A stretch of DNA of 64,000 nt from NCBI GenBank assembly GCA_945862025.1, contig CAMAWU010000003.1:1-64000 (forward strand), written 5' to 3'. This DNA comes from Ferrithrix thermotolerans DSM 19514 (lineage in GTDB: Bacteria > Actinomycetota > Acidimicrobiia > Acidimicrobiales > Ilumatobacteraceae). The position numbers were made by a program, and so were the translations under genes. Of the stretch, positions 14,717-32,503 are shown piece by piece. The stretch's first letter is position 1. Each line of letters opens with the position of its first letter. The notes under the pieces were generated by a model. It searched no databases and was not told the DNA's origin. It worked only from the letters and a program-made list of their open reading frames with translations.

Positions 14717-15475
14717 ATGACTGATAAAAATTTTAAAGAACCATATTTCATTCCGGCGAATAGTTCAGAGTTTTTAGCCAATGGCGAGACTTGGATTGAA
14801 AATAATCAAAGGTTTCGACAATCAGAACGCTTTAGATTTTTTCGCTGTGCGATGGACTATATCGTTGAAAATTATCTACCGGGGTCATATTTTGAATTTG
14901 GTGTACACCGAGCGCGAACCTTCACAATGGTTATGGGACTCGATGACTTCTATGCCTCAAATATGGGGGAAACGGCAGGTGGTCTAACTCCTAAACCTGG
15001 TGGTGGCTTCATGGACAAGTATTTTGCTTTTGACTCATTTGAAGGTTGGCCACAAATCTCGGATGTGACTTCGCACCCTCACTACTCCCCTGGTGGAGCG
15101 AAAACAGACTCCGATGAATTTATTGAACTCTTGACCGCATATGGGCAATCCACAGAAAGAGTCGAACTTATAGAAGGTTTCTACGATAGATCTTTAACTG
15201 AAAGTCTTGCGAACAAATACGTTCAAGAAAAAGTAAAAGCATCGCTTATAACTGTTGACTGCAATCTCTACGAATCATATAAATCAGTGTTTGCATGGGT
15301 AGACCAATTCATGCAACCTGGAACCGTGCTCTACTTAGACGACTACAACACTTTTCGAGCTCAGCCCAACCAGGGACCGAAACGCGCATGGAACGAATAC
15401 AAAGAAATATCAGATTGGAAATTTGAGCCGTTTCTCCCAGTCGGACATTGGGGGTTTTCATTTATTGTTTGTTAG
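14717..15475 (+). CDS. TylF/MycF-like macrocin O-methyltransferase family protein
   Basis: YFEFGVHRARTF, YFAFDSFEGWP, ITVDCNLYESYKSVFAWV, PGTVLYLDDYNT. Confidence 0.82.
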   Translation: MTDKNFKEPYFIPANSSEFLANGETWIENNQRFRQSERFRFFRCAMDYIVENYLPGSYFEFGVHRARTFTMVMGLDDFYASNMGETAGGLTPKPGGGFMDKYFAFDSFEGWPQISDVTSHPHYSPGGAKTDSDEFIELLTAYGQSTERVELIEGFYDRSLTESLANKYVQEKVKASLITVDCNLYESYKSVFAWVDQFMQPGTVLYLDDYNTFRAQPNQGPKRAWNEYKEISDWKFEPFLPVGHWGFSFIVC

Positions 15476-15530
15476 GCGTACCAAGTAAGCCTTTTAAACG
15501 TAAGTCTCTCGAAAGATAGACTTACGACAA

Positions 15531-16352
15531 ATGGGTGAGCATTCAAACTCCGAATTTTTTACAGCCGAAGAACGAGCCCTCAGCGCAGAGTTTCTCAGCA
15601 ATGGATTTATCGTTAGCGATGCCGAATCACCAAAAATTCTCGAGAGTATTAGCGACAATATTTCCCAAATAACAAAAAATTGGCTTAGCAACAACAATCT
15701 AGGAAACAAAACTTTCGATCTCGCCAACTCACATGAATTCGTCCCGAATGACCAACTCAATGATCTCCGACTGACAATTTTCGCCGAGATCAACAAACAT
15801 GCTGACATTCGCCAAAGATACTTTTCTTTGGCTCGAAATACCTTGTCATCTTTGGTTGGCAACGAACTGGCAATGCAGAATAAAGTTAATGTCTCTATCC
15901 AACAACCGAATGATGAAAGTTCGGTACTCCCGATGCATTCCGACATCTGGACAGGCGATTCCCCTTTTCAAGTCGTGTTGTGGGTGCCACTCACCGATGC
16001 ATCAAAATCAAACTCAATGTTTTTCCTCCCGCCTAATAAAAGTCGCGAGGCCCGACAGAGAGTTGCCGCAGGAGAATTTAACTCAATGGATCAGATTGAG
16101 ATTGAATACAAATCACAACTGATCACCATGGATGTTTCATACGGTAAAGTTTTAATCTTTGATTCAAGTTGCTTACATGGAAACGTCCTTAACTTAACCA
16201 AAACTGCTCGCTGGTCAATGAATTGCCGGTTCACCGGACTACTTACTCCGTTTACAAACCCTGAGCGCCGACTCGGTACCTATTATCTTCCAATTACGAC
16301 TCGTGCAGCCACGAAAATGGGGCTTTCGCTTCTTGGATCGCAAGAAGGCTGA
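15531..16352 (+). CDS. 2OG-Fe(II) oxygenase, resembling the sporadic carbohydrate cluster type
   Basis: MHSDIWTGDSPFQVVLWVPLTDA (HxD) and LHGNVLNLTKTARWSMNCRF (distal His, Arg); next to the LIC12192-like gene. Confidence 0.72.
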   Translation: MGEHSNSEFFTAEERALSAEFLSNGFIVSDAESPKILESISDNISQITKNWLSNNNLGNKTFDLANSHEFVPNDQLNDLRLTIFAEINKHADIRQRYFSLARNTLSSLVGNELAMQNKVNVSIQQPNDESSVLPMHSDIWTGDSPFQVVLWVPLTDASKSNSMFFLPPNKSREARQRVAAGEFNSMDQIEIEYKSQLITMDVSYGKVLIFDSSCLHGNVLNLTKTARWSMNCRFTGLLTPFTNPERRLGTYYLPITTRAATKMGLSLLGSQEG

Positions 16353-16356
16353 AATT

Positions 16357-16800
16357 ATGACCCGTAGTGATACTCGCGAACAAAAGGGCACAAAGGCTTA
16401 TACGACTCCGAGGTCTTTCGGTGGTTTTCAAATTCCAATTACTTTACAGAGCACAACACTACGCAATTACTGCGAAAAAAAAGATCTGGTGTTTCACCTA
16501 CATGTGGTTGAAAATCAGATCCCAAATACTTACCTGGTACTTGAATCATTAGTTGAGAAGGCCAACCACTACGACGGAATAGTGATGTGCAGCGTTTCAA
16601 TGTTGCCAGGTGATCCAAAAGTTCGGCAGATGATTACTCGCCGAGTTCTTGAGCAAGGTTGTTCATTACACTTTACTTTTGAACAGTTAGTGGTTTCTTC
16701 ATTAAACCAACTTGCAGAACTTGAAGAACTGGTTGCTTTGATTCAACTTTCACCGCACCATACTGCTGGAAACTCGCACTCTTTAACTCACTTGTTGTAA
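16357..16800 (+). CDS. LIC12192-like sporadic carbohydrate cluster protein
   Basis: About 147 aa, LVFHLHVVENQIPNTYLVLESLVEK...DGIVMCSVSMLPGD...ILEQGCSLHF-like pattern; family call from memory. Confidence 0.6.
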   Translation: MTRSDTREQKGTKAYTTPRSFGGFQIPITLQSTTLRNYCEKKDLVFHLHVVENQIPNTYLVLESLVEKANHYDGIVMCSVSMLPGDPKVRQMITRRVLEQGCSLHFTFEQLVVSSLNQLAELEELVALIQLSPHHTAGNSHSLTHLL

Positions 16801-16811
16801 GTTATAAGTAC

Positions 16812-17711
16812 ATGAGTCGGATTCTCGTAACTGGTATCAACTCTCCACTTGGCCAAGCCGTCGGGCGAAAACTTCAAGCCGAAGGACACATCGTTGTCGG
16901 CACAGTTCGCTCGTCAAAACTCAATTCGCAAGGTTTGCCTGCAAACGAACTGATCGCCCTCGACCTCGAAAATGCTGTTTCATTTATGAACATCGCAGGT
17001 GAAATAAAGTCGATCGTTCACGTCGCTGCGGCAAGTGTTGGAAGTGCTGAACACCTAATGTCTATAACAGGTTTTGGAACTCTGCATCTTGTAGAAAGAG
17101 CCAAAACTCTTAAGGTCAAGCGCATAATCCATATTTCAGGGATGGACGCTTACGGAAAAATATCTGTGCCGACCGTGACCGAATTTACTCAACCAACGCA
17201 CCAAAATGCTTACGGCACTGCTAAGTGGGCTGCCGAATCGTACATTGCAGACGCCTCAACGTTTATTGAAGGGATCAGTATTCGCTCACCCGCGATTGCA
17301 GGGCGAAACCATACAAGACATTTTCTTGCGCGGACTCTTGAGAAAATGTTGAACCAAAATGCGACCATTGTCGTTTCGAATCCTAATTTTAACTTTAACA
17401 ACCTTGTCCATGAGACCGTTCTAGCCGACTTTATTTTCGCGCTTTTGGAGTTACGAAATCTCCCAGAGTTACAAGCAGTTACGGTTGGATCGCTAGACGC
17501 TATCAGTTTTGAGAAAATAATAGAGTTTCTAGCAACAATAAGTGACTACAAGGGTGAAATAAATTGGGGACAAAGCACTGCTCAACCTTTCAATATAGAT
17601 TTTTCGACAACAATGAATTTTGGCTTTCAACCAATCACTTTGTTGCAAACACTCAATTTATGGACAAAGGATTTACGCCTCAAAGAAATCGAAAATTTTA
17701 TTCTTAATTGA
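16812..17711 (+). CDS. NAD-dependent epimerase/dehydratase (SDR)
   Basis: Rossmann start MSRILVTGINSPLGQAVGRKL; IHISGMDAYGK. Confidence 0.8.
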   Translation: MSRILVTGINSPLGQAVGRKLQAEGHIVVGTVRSSKLNSQGLPANELIALDLENAVSFMNIAGEIKSIVHVAAASVGSAEHLMSITGFGTLHLVERAKTLKVKRIIHISGMDAYGKISVPTVTEFTQPTHQNAYGTAKWAAESYIADASTFIEGISIRSPAIAGRNHTRHFLARTLEKMLNQNATIVVSNPNFNFNNLVHETVLADFIFALLELRNLPELQAVTVGSLDAISFEKIIEFLATISDYKGEINWGQSTAQPFNIDFSTTMNFGFQPITLLQTLNLWTKDLRLKEIENFILN

Positions 17712-18250
17712 TGACAAATCAGTGAATGAGACTCTTCTAAGTTTGTGAAAATTCCGTGACGTAACTGGATTAAACAAAATACTTGACGACAGAAATATTG
17801 GTGGACTTTAGGTCAAGATGTGGCAGTATCCTACGCGTATCCCTATTTACGTTAAGCCAATATTTAGAAGTAATAGTATGAGATATTTTTAATTTACAGC
17901 CAGCTCGAAAAAGAACTGTACAAGACAATGTGTTGCTCCCCAAGACTCGCGCGCTCTATATCAGGCTCGGGGGATTCCCATGTCGGCTGCAAAATATTTG
18001 TTTTTTATAAACTTTATTCAGATAATGAGTGGAGTACTGGCTCCAGTACAACAATCTGAATTTTCGTCGCCACAGAGATATCGTTCAAATTCTGATGGCT
18101 TAGATTTGATGGGAGACTTCCCAAATAAATGAAACACTACTATTGGAGAAGTTAGGAGATTAGGCGCCTCAAATTGCAAAAAAGATAACTAGAGGTTGCT
18201 CTCAAAATTTATTTTAAGTTGAATTTTTAAGGATCCTTATCTTGAAGTGT

Positions 18251-19489
18251 TTATTTTGTCCTCAAATGTCCCAAAATTTTTTCTAGAGACAAGACAATTT
18301 CGTTGATTTCACGCTCTCCAAAATTTTCGTTCAAAAAAAGATTGAAACTTCTTGCCTTCATTGACTCAGCGTTTGAACTTTTAATGACTTTTAAATTAAG
18401 TTTTTTGGTGATTTCCCAATCCGCCACTATATTTTGAAAACTAGGTAACAACGAAACTCCTTCAGCCTGCATCATCTCTGCAATTTCTAATTTTCGTGTC
18501 TTGAACTCATCTCCAACTAAAAGTGGGATAAAGAAAGGAGACTGTCCGCGCGAATGGCGCATCAATTCAAAATAAGGCTTGAATTTTTGTAATGCGACTT
18601 CAAGCGAAAACAAAAACTCCCGGCGTCTTCGTATTGTGTCGTCAAGCCGAGAAAGAGATGCGCTACCGATTGCACATGAAAACTCATCGGTATTAAAATT
18701 CAAAGCCGAAACTGTCGCATGACCAGGGTCACCAGAGCGATAATCTTTGCTCCATTTTGGTCGACCACGGTCCGACTCTTCGATAACTGCGTTACTTATT
18801 TGTTCGTTGTTCGTGTAGACAACCCCACCAGAGCCGCCCGTATGGAGACTCTTTCGATACATAGTTGAATAAGCCGAGACATCACCGAACATTCCGACAA
18901 GAGAGCCTTGACACATTGTTAACTTGCAGTCACACTGTTTAGGACAGACTCTCGCAAAAGGTGCCTGGCTGCAGTCTTCAATTAACTTCAGATTTTTCAA
19001 TTTTGCATTCACGCTTATTGTGGCTATATCTAAAGGCTCTCCCGCCATATGAACGGCGAATACGGCTGAAGTCTGCTGAGTAATTCCTGCCTCAATCTCT
19101 TCCCAATTTGTGTTGTAATTATTTGGCATTGTGTCAACAATTACTGGTGTCAGACCAGCTTCAATGATTGCAAATATTGAACCTGAGTCAGTGACACCAG
19201 GAACAATTACTTCACTGCCCACTGGAAGCCTAAGAGCTCGAACTGCGACGAAACAGGACACGGAACCCGAACTTACGGCTCTTGCAAACCCTCCTCCCAT
19301 TTTTTCTGCAAAGGAAGTCTCAAAATTTCTCTGAAAAAAGCCCTCATAGGGTGGATCTTGCTGAGCCTGCTCATAATGCGCAAGGACATCGAGCACTGCT
19401 TGTCGCTCTGCCTTTCCCATCGCAGCACGAAATGGTGCTGGTTTGTCTCGAACCATTGGCCCGCCCAACTTCGCTAAATTATCTCGCAT
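18251..19489 (-). CDS. DegT/DnrJ/EryC1/StrS-family aminotransferase with cysteine-rich insertion
   Basis: SSGSVSCFVAVRAL, IEDCSQAP, AYSTMYRKSLHTGGSGGVVYT (PLP Lys). Confidence 0.85.
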   Translation of the reverse strand: MRDNLAKLGGPMVRDKPAPFRAAMGKAERQAVLDVLAHYEQAQQDPPYEGFFQRNFETSFAEKMGGGFARAVSSGSVSCFVAVRALRLPVGSEVIVPGVTDSGSIFAIIEAGLTPVIVDTMPNNYNTNWEEIEAGITQQTSAVFAVHMAGEPLDIATISVNAKLKNLKLIEDCSQAPFARVCPKQCDCKLTMCQGSLVGMFGDVSAYSTMYRKSLHTGGSGGVVYTNNEQISNAVIEESDRGRPKWSKDYRSGDPGHATVSALNFNTDEFSCAIGSASLSRLDDTIRRRREFLFSLEVALQKFKPYFELMRHSRGQSPFFIPLLVGDEFKTRKLEIAEMMQAEGVSLLPSFQNIVADWEITKKLNLKVIKSSNAESMKARSFNLFLNENFGEREINEIVLSLEKILGHLRTK

Positions 19490-19576
19490 GCCAAAATTAT
19501 AGTCTAAATATTATTGTTGTCTTAATAAAGAAAAATTTATTTAAGTACCACTATTTCAAAAACCTACTGTAGGTTA

Positions 19577-20455
19577 TTGCCAATGAGTCGGGTTCTCGTA
19601 ACTGGTATCAACTCCCCACTTGGCCAAGCCGTCGGGCGCAAACTTCAAGCGGAAGGCCACATCGTTGTCGGCACAGTTCGCTCACCAAAACTCAACACAC
19701 AGTATTTGCCCGTAAACGAACTCATCGCGCTAGACCTTGACAACGATAAATCCTTTTTCAACATCACGGGTGGTTTTGATACCTTCGTGCATGTTGCGTC
19801 TGCTAATGAAGGGAGCGCCGAAGCATTATTGAAGATCACTGGCCTAGGCGTGCTACATCTTATTGATCGAGCAAAGCACTTAAATATTCGGCGTCTAATT
19901 CATATTTCATCGATGTCGATACATGGTCGAATTTCGAGTGAGGTGGTTGATGAGAGTACTAGGGTCACACATTCAGTACCTGTTGGAGCCGCAAAATGGG
20001 CAGCAGAGTGTTTTATTGCGAATGAAAGAGCATCTCTTGAAGCAGTAAGTGTGAGAAGTCCAGCAATTGCTGGTCCCTATGCGAACAGGCATTTCCTTGC
20101 GAAAATCTATTTGAATATGAGAAGTGGCCGAAGTGAGATTTCAGTATCAAACCCCGATCACATGTTTAACAACATCGTTCATGAAGAAGTGCTCGCTGAG
20201 TTCGTGAACACACTTTTGAAAAAAAGATCATTGCCTGAGTATCGGGCTGTACCAATCGGGTCGACTGATCCAATTTCATTGCGTGAGATTTTAGAAATTA
20301 TGGCAAAAGCAACGTCATACAAGGGTCGAATCAACTGGGTGGAACCAAAATCGCCACCATTTAGAATTGACTCAACAGGTGCTATTGAACTCGGTTACAA
20401 GCCCATAACAACTCTTGAAACTATCAACCGTTGGATGCATGACGCAAAAATTTAA
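19577..20455 (+). CDS. NAD-dependent epimerase/dehydratase, paralog of 16812..17711
   Basis: MPMSRVLVTGINSPLGQAVGRKLQAEGHIVVGTVRS; same domain as the upstream copy. Confidence 0.8.
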   Translation: MPMSRVLVTGINSPLGQAVGRKLQAEGHIVVGTVRSPKLNTQYLPVNELIALDLDNDKSFFNITGGFDTFVHVASANEGSAEALLKITGLGVLHLIDRAKHLNIRRLIHISSMSIHGRISSEVVDESTRVTHSVPVGAAKWAAECFIANERASLEAVSVRSPAIAGPYANRHFLAKIYLNMRSGRSEISVSNPDHMFNNIVHEEVLAEFVNTLLKKRSLPEYRAVPIGSTDPISLREILEIMAKATSYKGRINWVEPKSPPFRIDSTGAIELGYKPITTLETINRWMHDAKI

Positions 20456-21629
20456 CTTAGCACTTGAACCATGCATCGTTTGTGGTTCAAGTGATATTGA
20501 TCAAACGGTTTTAGGAACCGCCTTAGCAGATGCGAGTGACTTCACAAACAAGGATGAAATGCAAAGCAAATTTCGGTACGAACTTGCAACTTGCCTGATT
20601 TGTAATCATTCCTCAATTCAAACAGATAATCCATGCTGGATGCCAACTCGAAAGCACGATTTTATAAAATACGGCGAACCAACAGAACACTATTCACAAA
20701 TTTCAGAAAAACTCAAGACACTAAATCTTGAATTTAAGGATGTGTCGGTACATACATTTTCGTATAAAGATTTTCAACTAGCAAATCTTCTAGCCAGCGA
20801 TTTAAACATTCCTAGTCTTGAACTAAAAGACTTTGCAGGTTGCTCTAGGGATTGGCTGCCATCTGTTAGCGGCTCAATTAGTAAGCCACAAGCGCTTACG
20901 AGTTTCATCTCTGAAATTAGAGAGAGCAAAAAAAGCCATAAAATTGTCCTAATTACGAGATTTTTTGATCATGTACATAATCGTGATCTGCTTCAAACAA
21001 TTCTTAAATTGTCTTCGCCTTCAACGCATATTGTCTTTGACCTAAACGACTACGACAGACTTTTTGAATTAGGCACTCTTGAATTCATTTGGAATGAAAG
21101 ACGCAACTTCTTCAGTCAAAAGAATCTTGCATCGCTATTGACTAGGGCATCAGTAAAATTCACGATGTTTACTTACGAAAGCAAAGCAGTATCACCGACA
21201 CTTACGGGAGTCATATCTAGTCGCCTTCCATCCGATATGAATTCCGACGCAGCAGTCAAATCTCAGTCAACGAATCCGCATCTTGGAGAAAAACTGCTTG
21301 CATTACGCCAACACTGGAAACTTGAACTCAGGTTAGGACACAAACTTGCAATAATTGGTGCAAGCCATAAGGGAATATCCTTGGCTCAGTTTGTTTTAGA
21401 CCTTGACATCAGATTCTCATTACATGATGACAAAGAAGCCTCAAAGGGTAAGACCCCTCCGGTCATCCCACCACTTGGGTTTCATTCAGTTTCGGGTTTT
21501 GACTTTTCTGAGTACACACACTTAGCAATTACGACAACTCCAATTATCGCAGAAAAAATTATTCCGAAGTTACGAGATTCAGGCTTCACTGGACAGTTTC
21601 TGGACTTTGACTGTCGTCCTTTTAACTAA
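20439..21629 (+). CDS. C-methyltransferase-like protein lacking a clear SAM motif
   Basis: N-terminal CIVCGS...CLICNH zinc-type cysteines; C-terminal KLAIIGASHKGISLAQFVLDLDIRFSLHDD resembles the C-methyltransferase C-terminal domain. Confidence 0.5.
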   Translation: MTQKFNLALEPCIVCGSSDIDQTVLGTALADASDFTNKDEMQSKFRYELATCLICNHSSIQTDNPCWMPTRKHDFIKYGEPTEHYSQISEKLKTLNLEFKDVSVHTFSYKDFQLANLLASDLNIPSLELKDFAGCSRDWLPSVSGSISKPQALTSFISEIRESKKSHKIVLITRFFDHVHNRDLLQTILKLSSPSTHIVFDLNDYDRLFELGTLEFIWNERRNFFSQKNLASLLTRASVKFTMFTYESKAVSPTLTGVISSRLPSDMNSDAAVKSQSTNPHLGEKLLALRQHWKLELRLGHKLAIIGASHKGISLAQFVLDLDIRFSLHDDKEASKGKTPPVIPPLGFHSVSGFDFSEYTHLAITTTPIIAEKIIPKLRDSGFTGQFLDFDCRPFN

Positions 21630-22852
21630 ATAAGTTTGATTTCTGGATAAAGCTGGAGAACTTTTACTTCGCCCCCAAGAGTTTCTTTGATGCGAGTAGT
21701 AATTTTTTCTGTATGTATCCACGCGAGGCAAATAACGACACCTGGGCTCTTTTCGGCTAAGGCAGAATTTGGAAGAATCGGTACTTCAAAAGCATTCAAC
21801 CACTTGCCGCATTTTTGTGGACTATCGTCGACGACGAAATTCAAAACTGGGCCAAGTTCAAAGAAATCAATAAGAAGGTTCGCACTCCGAGCTGCACCAA
21901 ACCCTGCAATTACAGTGCCGAGATATGGTCGAATTAAATCAGCAACTTTATTTTTATCTGCCAATATTCGATTCTTAAATGATTCAATCCCTCGAGCAGA
22001 ATCTAAGCCAATCTTTCGTTCAAGTTCTATTAGTTGAGTGACAGAATCGCCAACTTGAGTTTTTGCGGTTATCAACTTTGCAAAACCAATCGCCGCACCA
22101 CCCTGGGTGTCAATTCTTTTGATCTCAATTAGATCTAATCCGCACCTGCGCAAAAACGGAATCAGGCTAAGTAGCGAATGCGCACTCACATGCTCATGAA
22201 AGACAGTCCCAATTAATCCTTTTTCAACAACATCAACTAAGTAAGAAAATTCAAACGAGAATACTGAGCCATCATGCATCAATGAAGCAACATTTGTTGC
22301 AAAACTAATCAAGTCATCGTTGTGTGCAAAAACATTATTTGCGGAAATCACATCAACTTTTGTGAATCTTTCTTTAATTCGACGCACTGTGTCATCAGAA
22401 AAAAACTCTTCCCAGGTCTCAACGCCTTGCGATCGTGCAAACTCTGCCGGGGCATGAGCTGGATCGATACCCAGAATTTCGGCGCCTAGTCGCTCTTTTA
22501 GCGTCTGCAAAAACAGACCATCATTTGACCCGACGTCAACGCACACAGGTGACGACTCCACGGCTAACAACTTGGCAACTGATTCCGCATACATTTTAAA
22601 ATGTTCGACTAATGCCGGATTCTTGCTCGGCATATATGTGAACTCGGCATCAAACAGAATCGCTGGTGGCAAAATATCCAGCAACTGAATATGACTACAA
22701 CTTTCACATCGATAAATATCTAGTGGATAGAGTGGCATCTGTTTTTCGCCCGTGACACGGTAATGATCGGCGATCGTGGTCAATGGCAATTTAACTGCCA
22801 AAACGAGTTGAGCAGAATCGCACAATCTGCATTTTGTTCGTCGTGTCAACAT
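21626..22852 (-). CDS. SAM-dependent C-methyltransferase (TylCIII/NovU-type)
   Basis: CRLCDS...CESCSHIQ cysteines, VCVDVGSNDGLFLQTLK, FHEHVSAHS, VIAGFGAARSANLL. Confidence 0.82.
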   Translation of the reverse strand: MLTRRTKCRLCDSAQLVLAVKLPLTTIADHYRVTGEKQMPLYPLDIYRCESCSHIQLLDILPPAILFDAEFTYMPSKNPALVEHFKMYAESVAKLLAVESSPVCVDVGSNDGLFLQTLKERLGAEILGIDPAHAPAEFARSQGVETWEEFFSDDTVRRIKERFTKVDVISANNVFAHNDDLISFATNVASLMHDGSVFSFEFSYLVDVVEKGLIGTVFHEHVSAHSLLSLIPFLRRCGLDLIEIKRIDTQGGAAIGFAKLITAKTQVGDSVTQLIELERKIGLDSARGIESFKNRILADKNKVADLIRPYLGTVIAGFGAARSANLLIDFFELGPVLNFVVDDSPQKCGKWLNAFEVPILPNSALAEKSPGVVICLAWIHTEKITTRIKETLGGEVKVLQLYPEIKLI

Positions 22853-22871
22853 GTTTTTATCCTCTATCGTA

Positions 22872-23765
22872 ATGTGTGTGAAGATTCTAGTCTCTGGTGC
22901 AAGTTCTTACGTCGGTAACCATGTTGCAAGAGCACTACACCTATCTGGTCACGATGTCGTCGGAACATTTAGACGCAGCAATAGCCGCACTGAAAGTCTC
23001 TCTTTGGAATTAGGTATCGAAATGATTCAAGTTGATTTAGCAACTGAAGGCGACTTTTCCCACCTGCCCACAGACTTTGATGCCGTGGTTCATAATGCTG
23101 GTTCGTTTCCATGGGTTGATGTGGATATTGAGAATGTAGTGAACTGCAACGTTGTCGGCACCATGAATTTGACAAATTGGTTGAAAAAGCAAAATTCAGT
23201 TTCTCGAATCGTGATGTATTCGACACTTTCTGTTTATGGCAACATCGTTGACAGTATACTTACAGAGAAAACTCCGACTAATTCGCATGAAATATATGGC
23301 TCATCAAAACTTGCTTCAGAACATTTGATGACTGAGTCCACGAATTGCGATAACCAATTGATAATTAGATTCCCTATTGTGCTCGGAAATAATGCTCACC
23401 GAGCTTTTATCCCTCAGATGGTTGAAAATTTTAAAAATAATTCGTCCGTAAAGATTTTTAACCCACACAAACTTTATAATTCAATGACTACGCTAGGTGC
23501 AGTAGCCGAACTAACTAATAGTTTCTTAATATCTGAGATGAGCGGTCGCCATTTAGTTAATATCGGTGCCGAAAACCCTATGACGGTACTAAAAATTGCT
23601 GAATTCTTGAAGAACTCGCTGAACAGTAAATCAATAATTTCACATCATGAGGTTGAAACAAATTGTTATCTAATTGATAATGCGTTAGCTATTAGTCTTG
23701 GTTACCAAGCACCAACAGTGCAAGGGGCGTTGGAGTATTACGCAATCGAAAGTGGGTGGTGGTGA
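22872..23765 (+). CDS. NAD-dependent epimerase/dehydratase
   Basis: KILVSGASSYVGNHVARAL; MYSTLSVYGN; EIYGSSKLASE. Confidence 0.8.
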   Translation: MCVKILVSGASSYVGNHVARALHLSGHDVVGTFRRSNSRTESLSLELGIEMIQVDLATEGDFSHLPTDFDAVVHNAGSFPWVDVDIENVVNCNVVGTMNLTNWLKKQNSVSRIVMYSTLSVYGNIVDSILTEKTPTNSHEIYGSSKLASEHLMTESTNCDNQLIIRFPIVLGNNAHRAFIPQMVENFKNNSSVKIFNPHKLYNSMTTLGAVAELTNSFLISEMSGRHLVNIGAENPMTVLKIAEFLKNSLNSKSIISHHEVETNCYLIDNALAISLGYQAPTVQGALEYYAIESGWW

Positions 23766-24847
23766 GGGCAATTGAGGCAACTTTGCACATCAGAAACGCT
23801 CGCAACGATGAAACTGGCGCAATCCTTAGCTGGCTGGACGATCCGGCTTTGCTAGCCGCAACTAATTCCATGCGAAGTTCCGAAGTTGATCAATCTCGCT
23901 TAAGGCAAAACATTCTGTCTAAAATTGCCAGCAAGTCTTTGTGGATTATCGTCCGTGACAATTTTCGAGTTGGTGCGATTCTGTCAACACCACAAGAAGA
24001 AAACACAGTATTTGTTTTCACGAAAGGTCGTCTTGACAGGGCGCTTCTTGCTGAAAACGCAGTTGAAATGTGGCAAGATCAGTTGGCTAAATCAGCAGGA
24101 CCAAAAATAGTAGCTAGAAACAATCTTGCTCAGATGAGCCCAGACGCCTCACCAGCGAATCATGCAGGAAGAAATTATTCCGAATCAAAACTTATTACTG
24201 CTGATCTAAAGTCTGTAAAAAAGATCCAGATATTGGGTCCGAAATTACGAAATGAATCGATTCGAAAAAAATTACATGAACAGGGATTTCATGTTGAAGT
24301 TTCTCCCGAACCATATGAGAACCACCTGTCAGATGAATTTTCGCCTGACATTATTTTGTCTAGTGGTTATGACCGATTACTCCGACCTGATACTGTTGAA
24401 AGATTTCGAGATCGCATAATCAATCTCCACGCTGCATATCTTCCCTGGGCTCGTGGGATCGGCACAACCCTATTCGCAACACTCCTGCGATACCCTTATG
24501 GCGTTAGCCTTCACTATATTAATGAGAGTCTTGATACAGGTGATCTAATTGCTCGCAAAATTTTTAGCCATGCCCCAAACGATACGCTTCGCACCATTTA
24601 TACAAAACTTTTAGACTTGACTGAAGATTTATTTTTTGAGAGTTTCTCACAGATCTGCAGCAATAAATCTGAGAGAACTTCACAGGAATCATTTGGAGAA
24701 ATAAAAACTACTCGCTCACGAGCACAATTTGAAGCGCTTATGGATTTGTGCTCAGATGGCTACGATACCAAAATCTCGGATTTGGAGAAATACCGAGATT
24801 CACTCGAGGCTTCATTCGCATTTCGTAACGCTTTATTCAATGGATAA
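23756..24847 (+). CDS. Fusion: N-terminal GNAT/PseH-like region + C-terminal formyltransferase
   Basis: C-terminal NLHAAYLPWARGIGTTLFATLLRYPYGVSLHYINESLDTGDLIARK retains formyltransferase Asn/His/Asp; N-terminal IRNARNDETGAILSWLDDPAL looks GNAT-like. Confidence 0.65.
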   Translation: MVVRAIEATLHIRNARNDETGAILSWLDDPALLAATNSMRSSEVDQSRLRQNILSKIASKSLWIIVRDNFRVGAILSTPQEENTVFVFTKGRLDRALLAENAVEMWQDQLAKSAGPKIVARNNLAQMSPDASPANHAGRNYSESKLITADLKSVKKIQILGPKLRNESIRKKLHEQGFHVEVSPEPYENHLSDEFSPDIILSSGYDRLLRPDTVERFRDRIINLHAAYLPWARGIGTTLFATLLRYPYGVSLHYINESLDTGDLIARKIFSHAPNDTLRTIYTKLLDLTEDLFFESFSQICSNKSERTSQESFGEIKTTRSRAQFEALMDLCSDGYDTKISDLEKYRDSLEASFAFRNALFNG

Positions 24848-24868
24848 CATAGTTTCAATTCGGAAATT

Positions 24869-25561
24869 ATGAAAAATATTATTCACTCCACTGCAGTCGT
24901 TGCACCCGATGTTGAGTTGGGAGAAAACAATTGGATCGGACCATACTCAGTTATTGGTGGGATGGGTTGCAAAGTTTCGATCGGATCAAATAACTATTTT
25001 GGTGCATACAACTTGATAGGTTCCCCGGCTGAGATTGCTGCAGATTGCCCAGTAGAAGCGATGCTCAATTTCGAACAATGGTCGGCCACGAATCCAACTC
25101 AGGTATCTGGAGTTAAAATTGGCGACAACAACGTATTACGAGATCGAGTCAGTATTGACGCTGGTCGTTATCAAAATACAACAATCAATGACCGTTGCTA
25201 CCTTCATTCGAACTGTCTGGTAAACCACGATTGTCAACTGGGCGAAGGCGTTGTGTTGTCTCCAGGTGTTATCTCAGCAGGAACCTGTAGTTTCGGAAAG
25301 TACTCTCAAATTGGCATGAATGCAGTTCTTCATCAAGGACGCAAAGTTGGTGCATTCACAATGGTTGGTATGAACGCCACAGTTACACGCGATATACCTG
25401 ACTTTGCTTTGAGTTTTGGTAGTCCATCGAAAACTATGGGCGTAAACCGAATACGTTTGACACGGCTTGGGATTTCCAAGAATGATATTGATTTAACCAA
25501 TGATTTCTTACTCGGACGCAATCAAACTTGCCCTGAGTCAGTGTTAGATCTTTTGAAATGA
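24869..25561 (+). CDS. LpxA-like left-handed beta-helix acyltransferase
   Basis: Hexapeptide repeats; IIHSTAVVAPDVELGENNWIGPYSVIGG and LHSNCLVNHDCQLGEGVVLSPG. Confidence 0.8.
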   Translation: MKNIIHSTAVVAPDVELGENNWIGPYSVIGGMGCKVSIGSNNYFGAYNLIGSPAEIAADCPVEAMLNFEQWSATNPTQVSGVKIGDNNVLRDRVSIDAGRYQNTTINDRCYLHSNCLVNHDCQLGEGVVLSPGVISAGTCSFGKYSQIGMNAVLHQGRKVGAFTMVGMNATVTRDIPDFALSFGSPSKTMGVNRIRLTRLGISKNDIDLTNDFLLGRNQTCPESVLDLLK

Positions 25562-25577
25562 CTAAAGTTGTTTTCCT

Positions 25578-26783
25578 GTGATTACTCAAAAACTTGCATT
25601 TGATGGCGGGACACCCGTTCGTGCAACACCGATGCCAGCGCGAATTGGGTTTGGTCCTGAAGAAGAAAAAGAACTTATGGAGTGCATCGCGCACTATCGC
25701 AACCTAGATTCTGATCCTCCATATATTGGATTATGGAATCAACGTTTCTCTGAAGCGTTTGCTGAATATCAGGGTGGCGGTTTTTCACTGCCGGTTAGTT
25801 CTGGAACGGGTGCACTGTATGTTTCACTCTCATCTTTGGGGCTTCCTAAAGGATCAACGGTGCTTACTTCGCCTGTGACTTGCAGTGGAGTACTTGGAAG
25901 TATTCAAGCACTCGGGTTCGTTCCTAAAGTTGTTGACTCTGCGCCTTCAAGTTTCAATATTGACGCCGAGCAAGTTGCGGCTCGCATTTCAGACGATGTC
26001 AGTTGCCTTTTAGTTACGCATGCCGCAGGAGAACCTGTCGACGTGCCTGCAATTAAAAGCATCTTGAAAAACCGGTCAATCGTAATTCTTGAAGACTGTA
26101 GCCAAGCGACTGGTGCCTCAATTCGTGGTGAAAAAGTTGGAACATGGGGCGAAATTTCTGCATTCTCAACGATGTATCGAAAAAATCTTGCCGCTGGTGC
26201 AAGCAGCGGACTCGTTTTTACGCGGGATTTTGAGACCTATCGCACAGCTCTCAGTTATTCAGACCGAGGCAAACCCGTTTGGAGACTCGATCTAAACCTG
26301 CGCGACCCGCAATATGCGTCTTTCCCAGCATTGAACTGGAACTCAAGCGAGATGTCAAACGCAATTGGCTTAGCAAGCCTTCGCCGCCTTGACAAAACGA
26401 ATGAACTAAGGCGAGTTTTTTTGCAAAAATTGTTTGTTGCTCTTGCTGATGCCGAGACAGTTTGCTCGCCATATGCATTCCACAATGGATTTGCGCCGTT
26501 TTACTTTCCAATCTTTGTTGATCAAAAAAAAATTAAAGTCAGTGTCGAGCAATTTGCTACAGCGGTTGAGGCAGAAGGAATACCACTCGGCGCAAAATAT
26601 GGTTGCCTTGTAAACACTTGGCCTTGGATCACTGAATATCTATCTGACACTTTCGTTGCTAGAAATGCTCTTCTTGCTCGTAACTCATCTTTCAATCTTC
26701 ATCTAAATGAGAACTACGGCGAACTTGAAATAAAAAATATTGTCGAAGCATTAGCCAAAGTCTCAGCCGCGTACACGAGATAG
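25578..26783 (+). CDS. DegT/DnrJ/EryC1/StrS-family aminotransferase
   Basis: SSGTGALYVSLSSLGL, ILEDCSQATGAS, AFSTMYRKNLAAGASSGLVFT. Confidence 0.85.
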   Translation: MITQKLAFDGGTPVRATPMPARIGFGPEEEKELMECIAHYRNLDSDPPYIGLWNQRFSEAFAEYQGGGFSLPVSSGTGALYVSLSSLGLPKGSTVLTSPVTCSGVLGSIQALGFVPKVVDSAPSSFNIDAEQVAARISDDVSCLLVTHAAGEPVDVPAIKSILKNRSIVILEDCSQATGASIRGEKVGTWGEISAFSTMYRKNLAAGASSGLVFTRDFETYRTALSYSDRGKPVWRLDLNLRDPQYASFPALNWNSSEMSNAIGLASLRRLDKTNELRRVFLQKLFVALADAETVCSPYAFHNGFAPFYFPIFVDQKKIKVSVEQFATAVEAEGIPLGAKYGCLVNTWPWITEYLSDTFVARNALLARNSSFNLHLNENYGELEIKNIVEALAKVSAAYTR

Positions 26784-26845
26784 TTGATCTCCTACTGCGA
26801 CAAACAAAACTTAGCGAAGCAGACTTTACTCGTGAGCACTAGCGT

Positions 26846-28009
26846 GTGAGCGTGAGTAAGTACCGAGAGCAGTGGAGTCTTGATTCGCAAGTTGCGTATC
26901 TTAATCATGGATCATTTGGTGCAGTGCCGAAAGTTGTGACAGTAGCACAGCGCGAAATTCAAGCACTTGAAGAGAAGAATCCAAATCTTTTTTTTCGCAC
27001 GACCCTGCCTACGTTGCACGACGAGGCACGGAAATTCGTCGCCGAGTGGCTTGGCAGTTCACCTGAACTTTTTGCTTTCGTACCTAACGCATCGCAAAGT
27101 GTGATCACTGCCGCCAGTGCGCTAGTTACGAAACCTCGCTCACAAATCGTTGCGACAAGTCTCGGCTACGGTGGCGTACTCAACGGTCTCGCCGAAATTG
27201 CTCGCCGCACACAAAGCACACTGCGAATCGCCGAAATTGCGTTCACTGCCGGAGTGCAAACCGCTGACGATATTGCCGACAGCGTGTTCGCGGCACTCAC
27301 TCCTGATACGAGTGTTGTAGTGCTGGATCAAATCACTTCCGAAACGGCGTTGTTGTTGCCGCTTGAGCAAATCGTGCGCACGATTCGCCGAGTCGCCCCG
27401 CAAGCGCGCGTGGTGATTGATGGCGCTCACACTCCTGGCATGTTGTCACCCATGCTGCCCGCAGACTTTGACGTGTGGGTAGGCAACTTTCATAAATGGA
27501 TATGCGCTCCGCGCGCGTCAGCAGGCTTAGTTTGCAAGAACTCGACGATTGCGAATCAGATGACACCGCTCGCACCATCATGGGATTTCGAAGCCGGGTT
27601 TCCAAAGTCATTTTTTGCGCAGGGCACTGATGACTACTCAAGTTATTTAGTAACTCCCGATGCGATTAAGTTTCACGATTCGTTCAACACAAATGAGTGC
27701 GACACACACAATCGCACCGTCATTGATGAGGTTGCAAAAATGTTGCATAATGCGTGGGGCACCGAACCCGATGTGCCGACAGAAATGTTCTGCCCGTGGA
27801 TGCGCCTAGTGCGACTACCGATGAAAAGACAACTCACTAAGGCAGAGGCCGACGCCCTCACACTAAAAGTCAGCCAAGAATTGAACACAGAAACTGTGAT
27901 CGTCTCACCAGGCGACTCAAACTATGTTCGACTTTCTGCACACATTTACAACGAAATTGAGGACTACGAAAAACTCAAACAGATTCCGAGCCTGATGATT
28001 ATCATCTAG
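26846..28009 (+). CDS. Class V aminotransferase, isopenicillin-N-epimerase-like
   Basis: YLNHGSFGAVP, VVIDGAHTPGML, VWVGNFHKWICAPRASAGL. Confidence 0.82.
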   Translation: MSVSKYREQWSLDSQVAYLNHGSFGAVPKVVTVAQREIQALEEKNPNLFFRTTLPTLHDEARKFVAEWLGSSPELFAFVPNASQSVITAASALVTKPRSQIVATSLGYGGVLNGLAEIARRTQSTLRIAEIAFTAGVQTADDIADSVFAALTPDTSVVVLDQITSETALLLPLEQIVRTIRRVAPQARVVIDGAHTPGMLSPMLPADFDVWVGNFHKWICAPRASAGLVCKNSTIANQMTPLAPSWDFEAGFPKSFFAQGTDDYSSYLVTPDAIKFHDSFNTNECDTHNRTVIDEVAKMLHNAWGTEPDVPTEMFCPWMRLVRLPMKRQLTKAEADALTLKVSQELNTETVIVSPGDSNYVRLSAHIYNEIEDYEKLKQIPSLMIII

Positions 28010-28011
28010 AC

Positions 28012-28167
28012 ATGGCTCGTTCTGCGGTTGTTGCTGGAAATTACAAATATTCAGGCACAGACACTCATCGCAAGTTGCTTAGCGTTGGGTCACTTTGGCA
28101 GCATCACCTGCATGATGTTGAACGCGACCCATGCACCATAGGCCAAGAGTCCATACCTCTCCTCTAA
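28012..28167 (+). pseudogene. 5' remnant of a MOSC-type gene
   Basis: First 40 codons match 29579..29698 (about 110 of 120 nt by hand alignment), then unrelated codons and a stop. Confidence 0.85.
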
Positions 28168-28408
28168 ATCTTCGAAGCAGCAGATTGGCGATGAAATCGT
28201 CACAAACAGCTAGTACCTACATATTAATAAAATTCATCGCACTATTATTTTTTTACCTCAACATTCGCTAGGTATGTGTCCTCGGGATTCCCTCGCATAC
28301 TCCCTGAGTTTAGTTTGATATCCTTTAACGTTACTCAAGATTAATCAACAGGCACAAAAACTCGTAGCAGTCAATCATAAGTTCTTTCAATGCATTAGAA
28401 AATAAAAT

Positions 28409-29560
28409 ATGAACCAGAAAAAAATTGCTTACCCTCGAAAATTAGAAATTCCAGTTGACGATTATCCAAAGACTCTACCCGCCGGTGGAATTGATTATTT
28501 TAAGAAGCGGCTGGATGAAAGGCTTGAATTTTCGGCGTTTGCGGCTGCAAATTATTCAAAATTTTTATCTTGGCAAGCAGAGGACAATCCTTTTGCCTCA
28601 ATTGATTTTCTTCCAGTCAGCGGAAATATAAGCCCAATTTCAAGATGCAACTTTAAGTGCACAATGTGCGCGGTCAGTGACTTCGCAAATGGAAAACGAT
28701 GCGAAGACATGAGTTTAGATTTATTTATTCGAAGATTGGACGATCTTGCAGGTCTGGTTCAGGTGTCACTTGTTGGTTTATCTGAGTTATTTCTTTTAAC
28801 TCACACTTTGGAGCCAATGTTACGAGCGTGTAAAGAAAGAAAGATTTGGACACATATCGTCACAAATGGATCACTTCTGCACCAACATAACTGGATTGAA
28901 AGACTGGTTGAAATAGATGTAGATGAAGTAACAGTTTCTGTTGACGGCGTTACAAAAACAACTTTCGAAAGCATCCGAAATAAATCAAATTTCGAAAGAG
29001 TCATTGCTAATGCAACTGAATTAAATAAAATATTTGATGCCAGGGGGGTAACTCCTAAGCGGACAAAAATGGCGGTAGTACTCCAGTCGCTTAATTTTCA
29101 CGAACTATTTGATTTTGTGCCATTCGCAAAGCATCTTGGATTCAAATCTATTGCATTCTCAATTGAAGCTTTTGACTGGGGATCAGAAGTATGGCGTGAT
29201 AGAAACAGCCAGAATGTTCGTGGAATCACAAAAAACGACGTCGCTAAATTAGTTGAGCAAGCAAAAAGCTTGGATATCTCAATTGGTTTTGTCGATGTTG
29301 TCCAAAGATACGTGGCCGAGCCAAAGGCATCTTCTCTTTGCAGTTGGCCCTTTAGCAAGATTTTTATCTCATCAGATGACCGCGTCGTACCCTGTTGTCA
29401 TATCTCTAATCCCGATCACTTTGAAATAGGTGATGGTCTTCGTGAGACATTCTCGGCAAAAGACGCCTGGTTTAGCGATGCCTACATGGACTTTAGAAGT
29501 GCGCACGCTAATGGGAATATCCCTGATGCCTGCAGTAGTTGCTATAAATCAAAACAATAA
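28409..29560 (+). CDS. Radical SAM protein with SPASM-like C-terminus
   Basis: CNFKCTMC (Cx3Cx2C); C-terminal CSWPFSKIFISSDDRVVPCCH...CSSCY. Confidence 0.87.
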   Translation: MNQKKIAYPRKLEIPVDDYPKTLPAGGIDYFKKRLDERLEFSAFAAANYSKFLSWQAEDNPFASIDFLPVSGNISPISRCNFKCTMCAVSDFANGKRCEDMSLDLFIRRLDDLAGLVQVSLVGLSELFLLTHTLEPMLRACKERKIWTHIVTNGSLLHQHNWIERLVEIDVDEVTVSVDGVTKTTFESIRNKSNFERVIANATELNKIFDARGVTPKRTKMAVVLQSLNFHELFDFVPFAKHLGFKSIAFSIEAFDWGSEVWRDRNSQNVRGITKNDVAKLVEQAKSLDISIGFVDVVQRYVAEPKASSLCSWPFSKIFISSDDRVVPCCHISNPDHFEIGDGLRETFSAKDAWFSDAYMDFRSAHANGNIPDACSSCYKSKQ

Positions 29561-29578
29561 TTTTGAAAGTGGCACAAG

Positions 29579-30379
29579 ATGGCTCGCCCTGCGGTTGTTG
29601 CTGGAAACCACAAATATTCAGGCACAGACGCTCATCGCACACTGCTTAGCGTTGGGGCACTTTGGCAGCATCACCTGCATGATGTCGAACGCGACCCAAT
29701 AGTTGTTGCACAAGTCGGCCAACAACTTTGCGAACAACTCAGCCACCTTTTAAGTCAGCCGATACCAAAACTAGAATTAAGCAAAACTCTACAAGCACTC
29801 GGTGAAACTGCAGCTCAACACATAGATGAACTTGATCCAAATCAACTCGCGACTTGGCTTAGTAACTTGTGGCCAACATTTGCAAAACTCCACAACTCCG
29901 ATGCCCAGAACCTAGCGAAACAAAATATTGGACAGGTTGTCGGCATCCAAGTTTCAACAAACAGTGTTCCAAAAACTTCTATCACTCAAGGCACAATTAA
30001 CTACGACGGCTTAATTGGCGACCGCCAAATGGCACGCACACACCATGGTCGACCGTGGCAAGCACTTTGCATTTGGAGCGATGAAGTGATCAACATGCAC
30101 GCGACCAATGGTCACCCGATTAGTCGTGGGAGTGCTGGCGAAAATATCACCATTAGTCAACTCGACTGGTCTGCCGTGCGCCCGGGTGCGACGCTTGAAT
30201 TCGGTTCAGTTAAAACGCAAGTTACGGGATATGCGATTCCGTGCAAGAAAAATTCGCGGTGGTTCAGCGACGGAGATTATCAACGACTATCACACGAATT
30301 TGGCGCAGTGAGTCGTGTCTATTGCTTAGTCACACAGCCTGGCGAAGTAACTGTCGGCGATATTGCCAACAGCAAATAA
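29579..30379 (+). CDS. MOSC-domain protein
   Basis: TINYDGLIGDRQMARTHHGRPWQALCIWSDEVI...RGSAGENITISQLDW; typical MOSC motifs. Confidence 0.82.
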   Translation: MARPAVVAGNHKYSGTDAHRTLLSVGALWQHHLHDVERDPIVVAQVGQQLCEQLSHLLSQPIPKLELSKTLQALGETAAQHIDELDPNQLATWLSNLWPTFAKLHNSDAQNLAKQNIGQVVGIQVSTNSVPKTSITQGTINYDGLIGDRQMARTHHGRPWQALCIWSDEVINMHATNGHPISRGSAGENITISQLDWSAVRPGATLEFGSVKTQVTGYAIPCKKNSRWFSDGDYQRLSHEFGAVSRVYCLVTQPGEVTVGDIANSK

Positions 30380-30408
30380 TGGTCAGTACCAAACCTAAAA
30401 CACATCTA

Positions 30409-30451
30409 CAGCCCCAAAGATATTCGAACCCGTACCGAGACCTTGTGAAGG
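30409..30451 (-). pseudogene. 3'-half tRNA-Glu relic
   Basis: cagccccaaagatattcgaacccgtaccgagaccttgtgaagg matches tRNA-Glu 32394..32436 at about 35 of 43 positions; no 5' half and T-stem no longer pairs. Confidence 0.65.
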
Positions 30452-30569
30452 AAAAACTAACTTACTACGTAAGAGTTAATGTGACATGGGGTGCGAGTTG
30501 AATGCACTTGCGAAAATTGAGTTCCAAAGCATGTGAGATCCGTCAAAATCTAATGAATAGAGGAAGACC

Positions 30570-31850
30570 ATGAAACGCATGATTAAGGGATACGTCCTCG
30601 GAATCGTTCTGTTGTTAAATGTCCTTCCGAGCACGGTAGACGCATCAATTGGGCAGATGTGTAAAAAGCTTGGTGAAACCAAAAAATCAGTTATTAAGTC
30701 GAAGATAGTTAACTTGAAGTGCTCGTCCCAAGGCAAGAAGAAAGTCTGGAAGCAACTCACGGGCGACACGACATATGGGGCTAAAGTTCTTGAGTCTTCA
30801 GCAGCGAAATTTGTGAATATGGCTATAGCTGTGCGCTCCCAAGAAGCTCAGTGCATGCTCGTTATGAAAAACGGCAAGGTGATTGCCGAATGGCATTGGG
30901 ATAGTTACTCCGCGAACACAAATATCGAAATCGCATCGGCCACAAAAAGTTTTGCATCGACGCTGATTGGAATCGCAATTCGCAAGGGCGTCTTCGGTCT
31001 TGACGACCTAGCATCCAGATACATAACCGAGTGGATTGGCACACCAAAGCAGAACATCACAATTCGGCACCTACTAGCGATGACATCGGGACTTGAAGAT
31101 TTTAGCGTAAGCAATCCCGCAATTAATTTGACTACCCCAGGTTTAAACCTTGAATCCCTAGTTACGAACGCATCCCAATTAGCTGTCGGTGGTACATATT
31201 CAGGAGCACGTCGCTACGTGTTGCCGGGTAAAACGTGGTCTTATATCAACGTCAATACTATGTCACTGAGCATTTTGTTGAAGCGAGCGACTGGCGAAAC
31301 GGTGCAATCCTTTGCTCAACGCGAGTTGTTTCTGCCACTCGGAATGACGATTGACATGACACTGGACGCAAACAACAACCCGCCGCTGGCTGTTGGGATG
31401 CGAGCAGGTTGCGACGATGTCGGAAGGCTCGTGCAGCTATATCTGAACGCAGGCGAATGGAATGGATTACAGATATTGACTGCTTCATTCGTCAAGGACG
31501 CAGTGTCGCCTCAAGTCACGTGTGGCGAGTGCATCAACATTCCAAATACTTTTGACGTTTCATTAATGAACGGTGCCTACGGTTTGAACTGGTGGAACAA
31601 CGCAGTATCACCCTATGCGGCCGCCGCATTTGGAACTGAAAAAACGGGTCCAAAAATGCCAGACCTACCGACTGATATGTTTTACGCATATGGAAGCTGC
31701 CAGCAACTCGGCGCTGGACTACCGACCCAGCAACTAGTGGTGGTGGTTTTGCGCAAAGGATGTGATGACCCGGTTCAGGCGAATTTGTATGCGACTAATA
31801 CTGGTCCTGGTTCTACCTTCATGGATGAACTCACCAAGGCATACAAGTAA
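30570..31850 (+). CDS. Secreted serine hydrolase, class C beta-lactamase family
   Basis: Signal peptide; IASATKSFAS (SxxK), YINVNTM (YxN). Confidence 0.85.
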   Translation: MKRMIKGYVLGIVLLLNVLPSTVDASIGQMCKKLGETKKSVIKSKIVNLKCSSQGKKKVWKQLTGDTTYGAKVLESSAAKFVNMAIAVRSQEAQCMLVMKNGKVIAEWHWDSYSANTNIEIASATKSFASTLIGIAIRKGVFGLDDLASRYITEWIGTPKQNITIRHLLAMTSGLEDFSVSNPAINLTTPGLNLESLVTNASQLAVGGTYSGARRYVLPGKTWSYINVNTMSLSILLKRATGETVQSFAQRELFLPLGMTIDMTLDANNNPPLAVGMRAGCDDVGRLVQLYLNAGEWNGLQILTASFVKDAVSPQVTCGECINIPNTFDVSLMNGAYGLNWWNNAVSPYAAAAFGTEKTGPKMPDLPTDMFYAYGSCQQLGAGLPTQQLVVVVLRKGCDDPVQANLYATNTGPGSTFMDELTKAYK

Positions 31851-31872
31851 GCAACCAGTTATTTCTGTTGTC

Positions 31873-31908
31873 GTGTCTAATGCTGTGTCTATTGCTGTGT
31901 TTATTGTC
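31873..31908 (+). repeat. Imperfect 12-bp tandem repeat x3
   Basis: gtgtctaatgct / gtgtctattgct / gtgtttattgtc. Confidence 0.6.
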
Positions 31909-31961
31909 TTGTCACACAGCCTGGCGAAGTTGCCGTTGGTGACGTCGTAACTTGCACGTGA
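31897..31961 (+). pseudogene. 3' remnant of a MOSC-type gene
   Basis: Frame reads VYCLVTQPGEVAVGDVVTCT*, matching the MOSC C-terminus VYCLVTQPGEVTVGDIANSK*. Confidence 0.8.
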
Positions 31962-32390
31962 TCAACAATTCGCGGCGCTAACACCAACGGCATTTAGTTC
32001 AGCGATCAATGCATCGCGAGTCTTGATGTCAGCGACGCCCATTGTCCACTCGGCGCCACACAAAATCGGCGTGTCATCCCATGTTCGCGCGCTGCCAGTG
32101 ACGCCAAGAAGTGAAAGCGCTTCGTCGCTCGCGACTTGTTTGGCGGCTTGGCTGACGTATACATCAAACTCAATTTGCTTATCGGAGCGCTCACACCGCC
32201 ACGACTCTTTATTTTCTGAAGGAGATTTTTGCGCCAGCGACGACAATGGCTCGCAAACAACTTTCGCGATTGAGCCGGCGATGCCAGGTGCTTCAATTAA
32301 TTGAGTCGCTGCCGATTCGTCTGACGACGTGTCACTTCCACCACATGAAACGATGACCATCAACAGAGTTGCTAGTGCAAGTTTTTTCAT
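31962..32390 (-). CDS. Small putative lipoprotein
   Basis: MKKLALATLLMVIVSCGGSD lipobox-type N-terminus; ATG abuts the tRNA-Glu 3' end. Confidence 0.65.
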   Translation of the reverse strand: MKKLALATLLMVIVSCGGSDTSSDESAATQLIEAPGIAGSIAKVVCEPLSSLAQKSPSENKESWRCERSDKQIEFDVYVSQAAKQVASDEALSLLGVTGSARTWDDTPILCGAEWTMGVADIKTRDALIAELNAVGVSAANC

Positions 32391-32466
32391 TGGCAGCCCC
32401 AACGGGATTCGAACCCGTGCCGCCACCTTGAGAGGGTGGTGTCCTAGTCCACTAGACGATGGGGCC
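32391..32466 (-). tRNA. tRNA-Glu (anticodon CTC), CCA encoded
   Basis: GGCCCCATCGTCTAGTGGACTAGGACACCACCCTCTCAAGGTGGCGGCACGGGTTCGAATCCCGTTGGGGCTGCCA; full cloverleaf, stem CCACC/GGTGG. Confidence 0.95.
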
Positions 32467-32503
32467 AAGTAGATGACTAACGCTACCTGTGAATTTGCAT
32501 TCG

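Follow-up and report, generated by a model that had tools for sequence, protein, structure and literature searches.

A resident MOSC gene in a lake-dwelling actinobacterium was split and interrupted by about 3.7 kb of DNA (28132-31896), and a complete MOSC gene now lies between its two remaining ends; comparison with related genomes confirms the disruption. The locus is a genuine recombination scar, old and in part decayed; scars of this kind are ordinary, and this one is unusually readable. Positions refer to the window, the whole 64,000-nt stretch of DNA that was analysed. The named relatives of the host are freshwater actinobacterial MAGs, one of which is labelled acIV. The features of the locus are as follows.

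26846-28009, forward strand: class V aminotransferase (PLP) gene (Pfam Aminotran_5)
28012-28131, forward strand: 5′ stub of the resident MOSC gene, codons 1-40
28132-28408, no strand: spacer, present only in the window genome and the sister species G024
28409-29560, forward strand: radical SAM/SPASM gene (Pfam Radical_SAM and SPASM; about 38% G+C)
29579-30379, forward strand: complete MOSC gene, YiiM-like (Pfam MOSC, E 1.4e-15), starting 18 nt after the radical SAM stop
29879-30569, no strand: tract in which one of the two species carries a divergent replacement allele
30409-30451, reverse strand: 43-nt relic of a tRNA-Glu(CTC) 3′ half, resembling an attachment scar
30570-31850, forward strand: serine hydrolase gene, beta-lactamase fold (Pfam Beta-lactamase, 1.3e-27)
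31873-31906, no strand: tandem repeat at the right junction, 2.8 copies of a 12-nt unit (TRF)
31897-31961, forward strand: 3′ stub of the resident MOSC gene, its last 65 nt
31962-32387, reverse strand: lipoprotein gene, the right neighbour of MOSC in relatives
32391-32466, reverse strand: tRNA-Glu(CTC), the hotspot gene (ARAGORN, Rfam)

The two ends of the old gene can both be recognized. The 5′ stub and the intact gene form a direct repeat (28012-28131 and 29579-29698, 92% identity over 120 nt) in which each copy begins with ATG, and the first-pass annotation was correct in reading codons 1-40 of a MOSC gene at 28012. It had placed the stub 3 bp after the aminotransferase stop; the adjacency holds and the distance does not, as two bases separate the stop codon (28007-28009) from the ATG, the same 2-nt spacing as in G006, G012, G003 and G042. 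The last 20 or so MOSC codons were likewise rightly located. The 3′ stub is 81.5% identical to the end of the G006 MOSC gene over 65 nt, repeats part of the intact copy (31897-31942 vs. 30315-30360, 80% over 46 nt) and ends at 31961, abutting the lipoprotein stop at 31962 with 0 nt between them. An identical zero-distance junction is found in G006, and the two stops are directly adjacent in those species that have the lipoprotein; moreover, 31897-32473 aligns to G006 as one piece (86%). Since both stubs keep the junctions of the relatives, with 2 nt at the left one and none at the right, the resident MOSC gene formerly spanned 28012 to 31961. The 5′ stub is part of an ORF of 51 codons that stays open to 28164, the final 11 codons of which are unlike the intact MOSC gene. 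That this ORF encodes a functional small protein is unsupported: between the window and G024 the stub shows 4 synonymous and 7 nonsynonymous changes (Sd 4, Nd 7), and a signal of purifying selection is absent. Slippage at the join may have produced the tandem 12-nt units of the right junction.

The undisrupted order aminotransferase-MOSC-lipoprotein-tRNA-Glu, proposed as a check in the first-pass annotation, was found in G006, G003 and G042, where the four genes follow in direct succession and MOSC is intact. To the left of MOSC, the aminotransferase is a conserved neighbour within the genus, lying directly upstream in G006, G012, G003, G022 and G042. Further to the left, 15000-26837 has the character of a glycan-type island. 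None of the three closest genomes searched (G024, G006 and G042) gives a long match to it, and sugar epimerases, DegT aminotransferases, a formyltransferase and an acyltransferase occur in the 10 kb upstream of the locus; the aminotransferase thus borders a variable island of glycan type. The end of the aminotransferase gene (27626-28009) is 99.2% identical between the window and G024 vs. 94% for the downstream chromosome, which hints at a recent exchange between the two species.

G024, which is a separately assembled species, matches 27626-31138 without gaps at 92.8%, and the match includes the 5′ stub and its downstream boundary, so that the left 3 kb of the interrupting DNA is common to both species. 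Misassembly, a concern raised at the first pass, can be excluded for this left side by sequence comparison because G024 is colinear with the same stub and junction. The right junction is seen in the window genome alone, the G024 contig ending at 31138, before the 3′ stub; the lipoprotein region of G024 was not found on its other contigs. The spacer at 28132-28408 is 87% identical between the two, and the unconstrained spacer differs by 12% (30/244), indicating that the window genome and G024 belong to different species, which have the event in common through descent or exchange. The window does come from a MAG (1.73 Mb, 128 contigs, 83.85% complete) and the locus is strain-variable, as would suit an assembly chimera of two strains in a metagenome, yet the structure recurs over 3.5 kb, down to where the stub ends, in the independent MAG of a second species that differs by this much in the spacer. 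We therefore regard a chimera as extremely unlikely, the right junction being the one part that lacks the confirmation of a second genome.

Between the stubs, the first-pass annotation had listed a radical SAM gene, an intact MOSC gene, a tRNA relic and a serine hydrolase, and Pfam searches together with a shuffle test bore out all four. The genes new to the slot are those for the radical SAM protein and the serine hydrolase. Among the 29 genomes of the genus searched, the radical SAM gene is confined to the window genome and G024 and is absent from the other 27; its best matches in the family are 24-28% identical, with no close relative found there. Viral contigs yielded relatives of the radical SAM protein at only 25% and none of MOSC or the hydrolase, while phages and plasmids gave the radical SAM protein distant matches of at most 26% identity among the matches listed. 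The protein also scores far under the curated cut-offs of every family that it resembles. A role as a viperin-type defence gene was rejected, as viperin models match residues 77-234 as they would a general radical SAM relative, and a SPASM domain is present. For the serine hydrolase, the best relative is a 56% homologue in G005. The intact MOSC protein is 89% identical to that of G024 and 72-75% identical to those of other species. It is weakly similar to 6-hydroxyaminopurine reductase, and assignment as the YiiM equivalog fails at 26 bits against a curated cut-off of 294; unlike YiiM, it has about 110 extra N-terminal residues. The tRNA relic is 81% identical to 32394-32436 of the tRNA-Glu gene, and its alignment score was reached in 0/1000 dinucleotide shuffles in the window genome and in G024. 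An RNA element in the spacers was considered and dropped, Rfam giving only two tRNAs and one match below the gathering score. No integrase, transposase or other mobility gene was found among the genes of the insert or the G022 cargo genes examined.

Recombination had been proposed at the first pass to have brought in foreign DNA with its own diverged MOSC gene. New DNA does lie inside the resident gene, but a distant source does not hold: over the 120-nt 5′ region the stubs and intact copies of the window and G024 form one clade, 91.7-97.5% alike, with other species at most 77.5%. "Allelic replacement," the term then used, is also loose, as the new copy did not displace the ends of the resident gene, which persist next to it. 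Between stub and intact copy, dS is 0.20 within the window and 0.035 within G024, and dS between the radical SAM orthologues of the two species is 0.124. These values and the closeness of the copies suggest that the intact gene stems from this lineage or from one very close to it and arrived at about the time when the two species split. The donor may have been that lineage or a very close one, or else the stub may be a duplicate, as the identity of stub and intact copy fits duplication within the lineage as well as it fits a close donor. Partial duplication by recombination and transformation is known (Refs. PMC3784515, PMC3240628), and transformation makes tandem duplications in pneumococcus (PMC3784515). 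One could accordingly picture a merodiploid in which unequal crossing-over duplicated the slot in tandem and the outer MOSC copies, being superfluous, subsequently decayed into stubs, the 5′ ends in G024 being as alike as recent paralogues. We consider this quite improbable, since the aminotransferase, the lipoprotein and the complete tRNA are each present only once and another source would still be needed for the radical SAM and hydrolase genes.

The interval between the aminotransferase and tRNA-Glu is itself variable. It differs among G006, G003, G042, G012, G022, G021 and the window/G024 pair, which is the variable content of a flexible island: G021 is without MOSC, G012 is without the lipoprotein, and G022 shows a 46-nt tRNA-Glu scar with an SDR gene behind it. 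Cargo borders carry repeats of the tRNA 3′ end, namely the 46-nt copy in G022 (98%), another on G022 contig C45 and the 81% relic in the window. G022 also has two tRNA-Glu(CTC) genes on separate contigs, each near a partial tRNA-Glu copy (L020 7454-9275; L120 108-1370), and the duplicate genes with their partial copies suggest that serial insertions may have occurred at tRNA-Glu. In the lipoprotein-free G012 and G022, MOSC ends about 26 nt before tRNA-Glu or the 46-nt scar; the intact MOSC gene of the window lies about 29 nt from the tRNA-Glu relic. Because this spacing is that of the lipoprotein-free haplotype, the block resembles another haplotype of this slot that was joined into the resident one.

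We therefore favor, as the probable explanation, that two haplotypes of the variable slot beside tRNA-Glu were fused by recombination at the edge of the glycan island. What the comparisons show directly is the disruption, its presence in a sister species, the closeness of the copies and the later tract exchange; the fusion in one event is inferred. The incoming block (radical SAM-MOSC-tRNA-Glu scar-serine hydrolase) would be the other haplotype of the slot from a very close relative. The recombination that joined it into the resident MOSC gene would have been non-homologous at its left boundary and probably at the right one too. The resident gene would then have lost its middle part while both ends persisted as decaying stubs, and the incoming MOSC gene would have assumed its function, all before the two species split or at about that time. 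Two points count against this reading: searches did not turn up the donor haplotype, and neither of the block boundaries, both of which were located, has clear microhomology.

Each of the new genes can also be viewed as a one-gene insert with one end of MOSC repeated directly on either side of it, as would result if a radical SAM piece had entered at the MOSC start and a hydrolase piece at the MOSC end, each creating its repeat by a long target duplication or a Campbell-type integration. The tRNA-Glu scar would belong to the right-hand insert only, and the SDR gene of G022 sits behind a similar scar. Nevertheless, two events of the same odd topology would be required, neither insert has an integrase or transposase, and a repeat starting exactly at the ATG is not favored by random target duplication; we judge this account unlikely.

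After the haplotype fusion that we propose, one of the two species received a new 3′ half of the intact gene, together with a new version of the scar, by ordinary homeologous exchange. In 29879-30569, which covers the C-terminal half of MOSC, the tRNA relic and spacer, the window and G024 differ at 129/691 positions compared to 79/2039 in the flanks (Fisher p 1e-31). Similarly, dS between them is 0.67 for MOSC nt 301-798 and 0.02-0.12 for the aminotransferase, the radical SAM gene, MOSC nt 1-300 and the hydrolase. The tract is a separate, later homeologous replacement in one of the two species from another lineage, and this partly explains why identity came out lower at the 3′ end than at the 5′ end. 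Relative to other species, too, the intact MOSC gene is a mosaic, being about 62% identical to relatives over nt 1-300 and 74-88% over nt 301-801; the step at nt 300 suggests that its N-terminal domain was exchanged or is evolving separately.

Some elements integrate at the end of a gene and restore it, as SXT does in prfC and as do tRNA-targeting islands. The locus resembles SXT/prfC-type integration in having a gene fragment on one side and a complete gene on the other. In contrast, it has no recombinase or integrase, it has two stubs rather than one, and its repeats are 120 and 65 nt, so that it does not fit SXT-like elements. That MOSC gene ends in this lineage are recurrent landing points for single-gene cassettes, which would bring a copy of the gene end along and so insert at no cost to the gene, a self-healing integration without a recombinase of its own, is very doubtful. 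For other freshwater bacteria such as Methylophilaceae, the literature describes repeated tRNA 3′ ends in additive islands and a rise in dS at the borders of replacement islands (PMC10872708). Our locus shares with those flexible islands the variable tRNA slot, the repeated pieces of tRNA 3′ end, an adjoining glycan island and raised dS near the borders. It differs in that the cassette broke and re-supplied a neighboring protein gene, the inserts are of one gene and no integrase was seen. As in homology-facilitated illegitimate recombination and transformation merodiploids (PMC3240628, PMC3784515), foreign DNA would have been trapped with the aid of homology and partial duplicates left; the window locus, unlike those, is known only as an old end product.

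The locus is thus a useful example of recombination at an island edge, a known kind of event rather than a new system. It offers a well-preserved record of gene gain by small-genome lake bacteria, in which two versions of a slot would have fused inside a gene with both scars still readable, and the event can be dated against a sister species.
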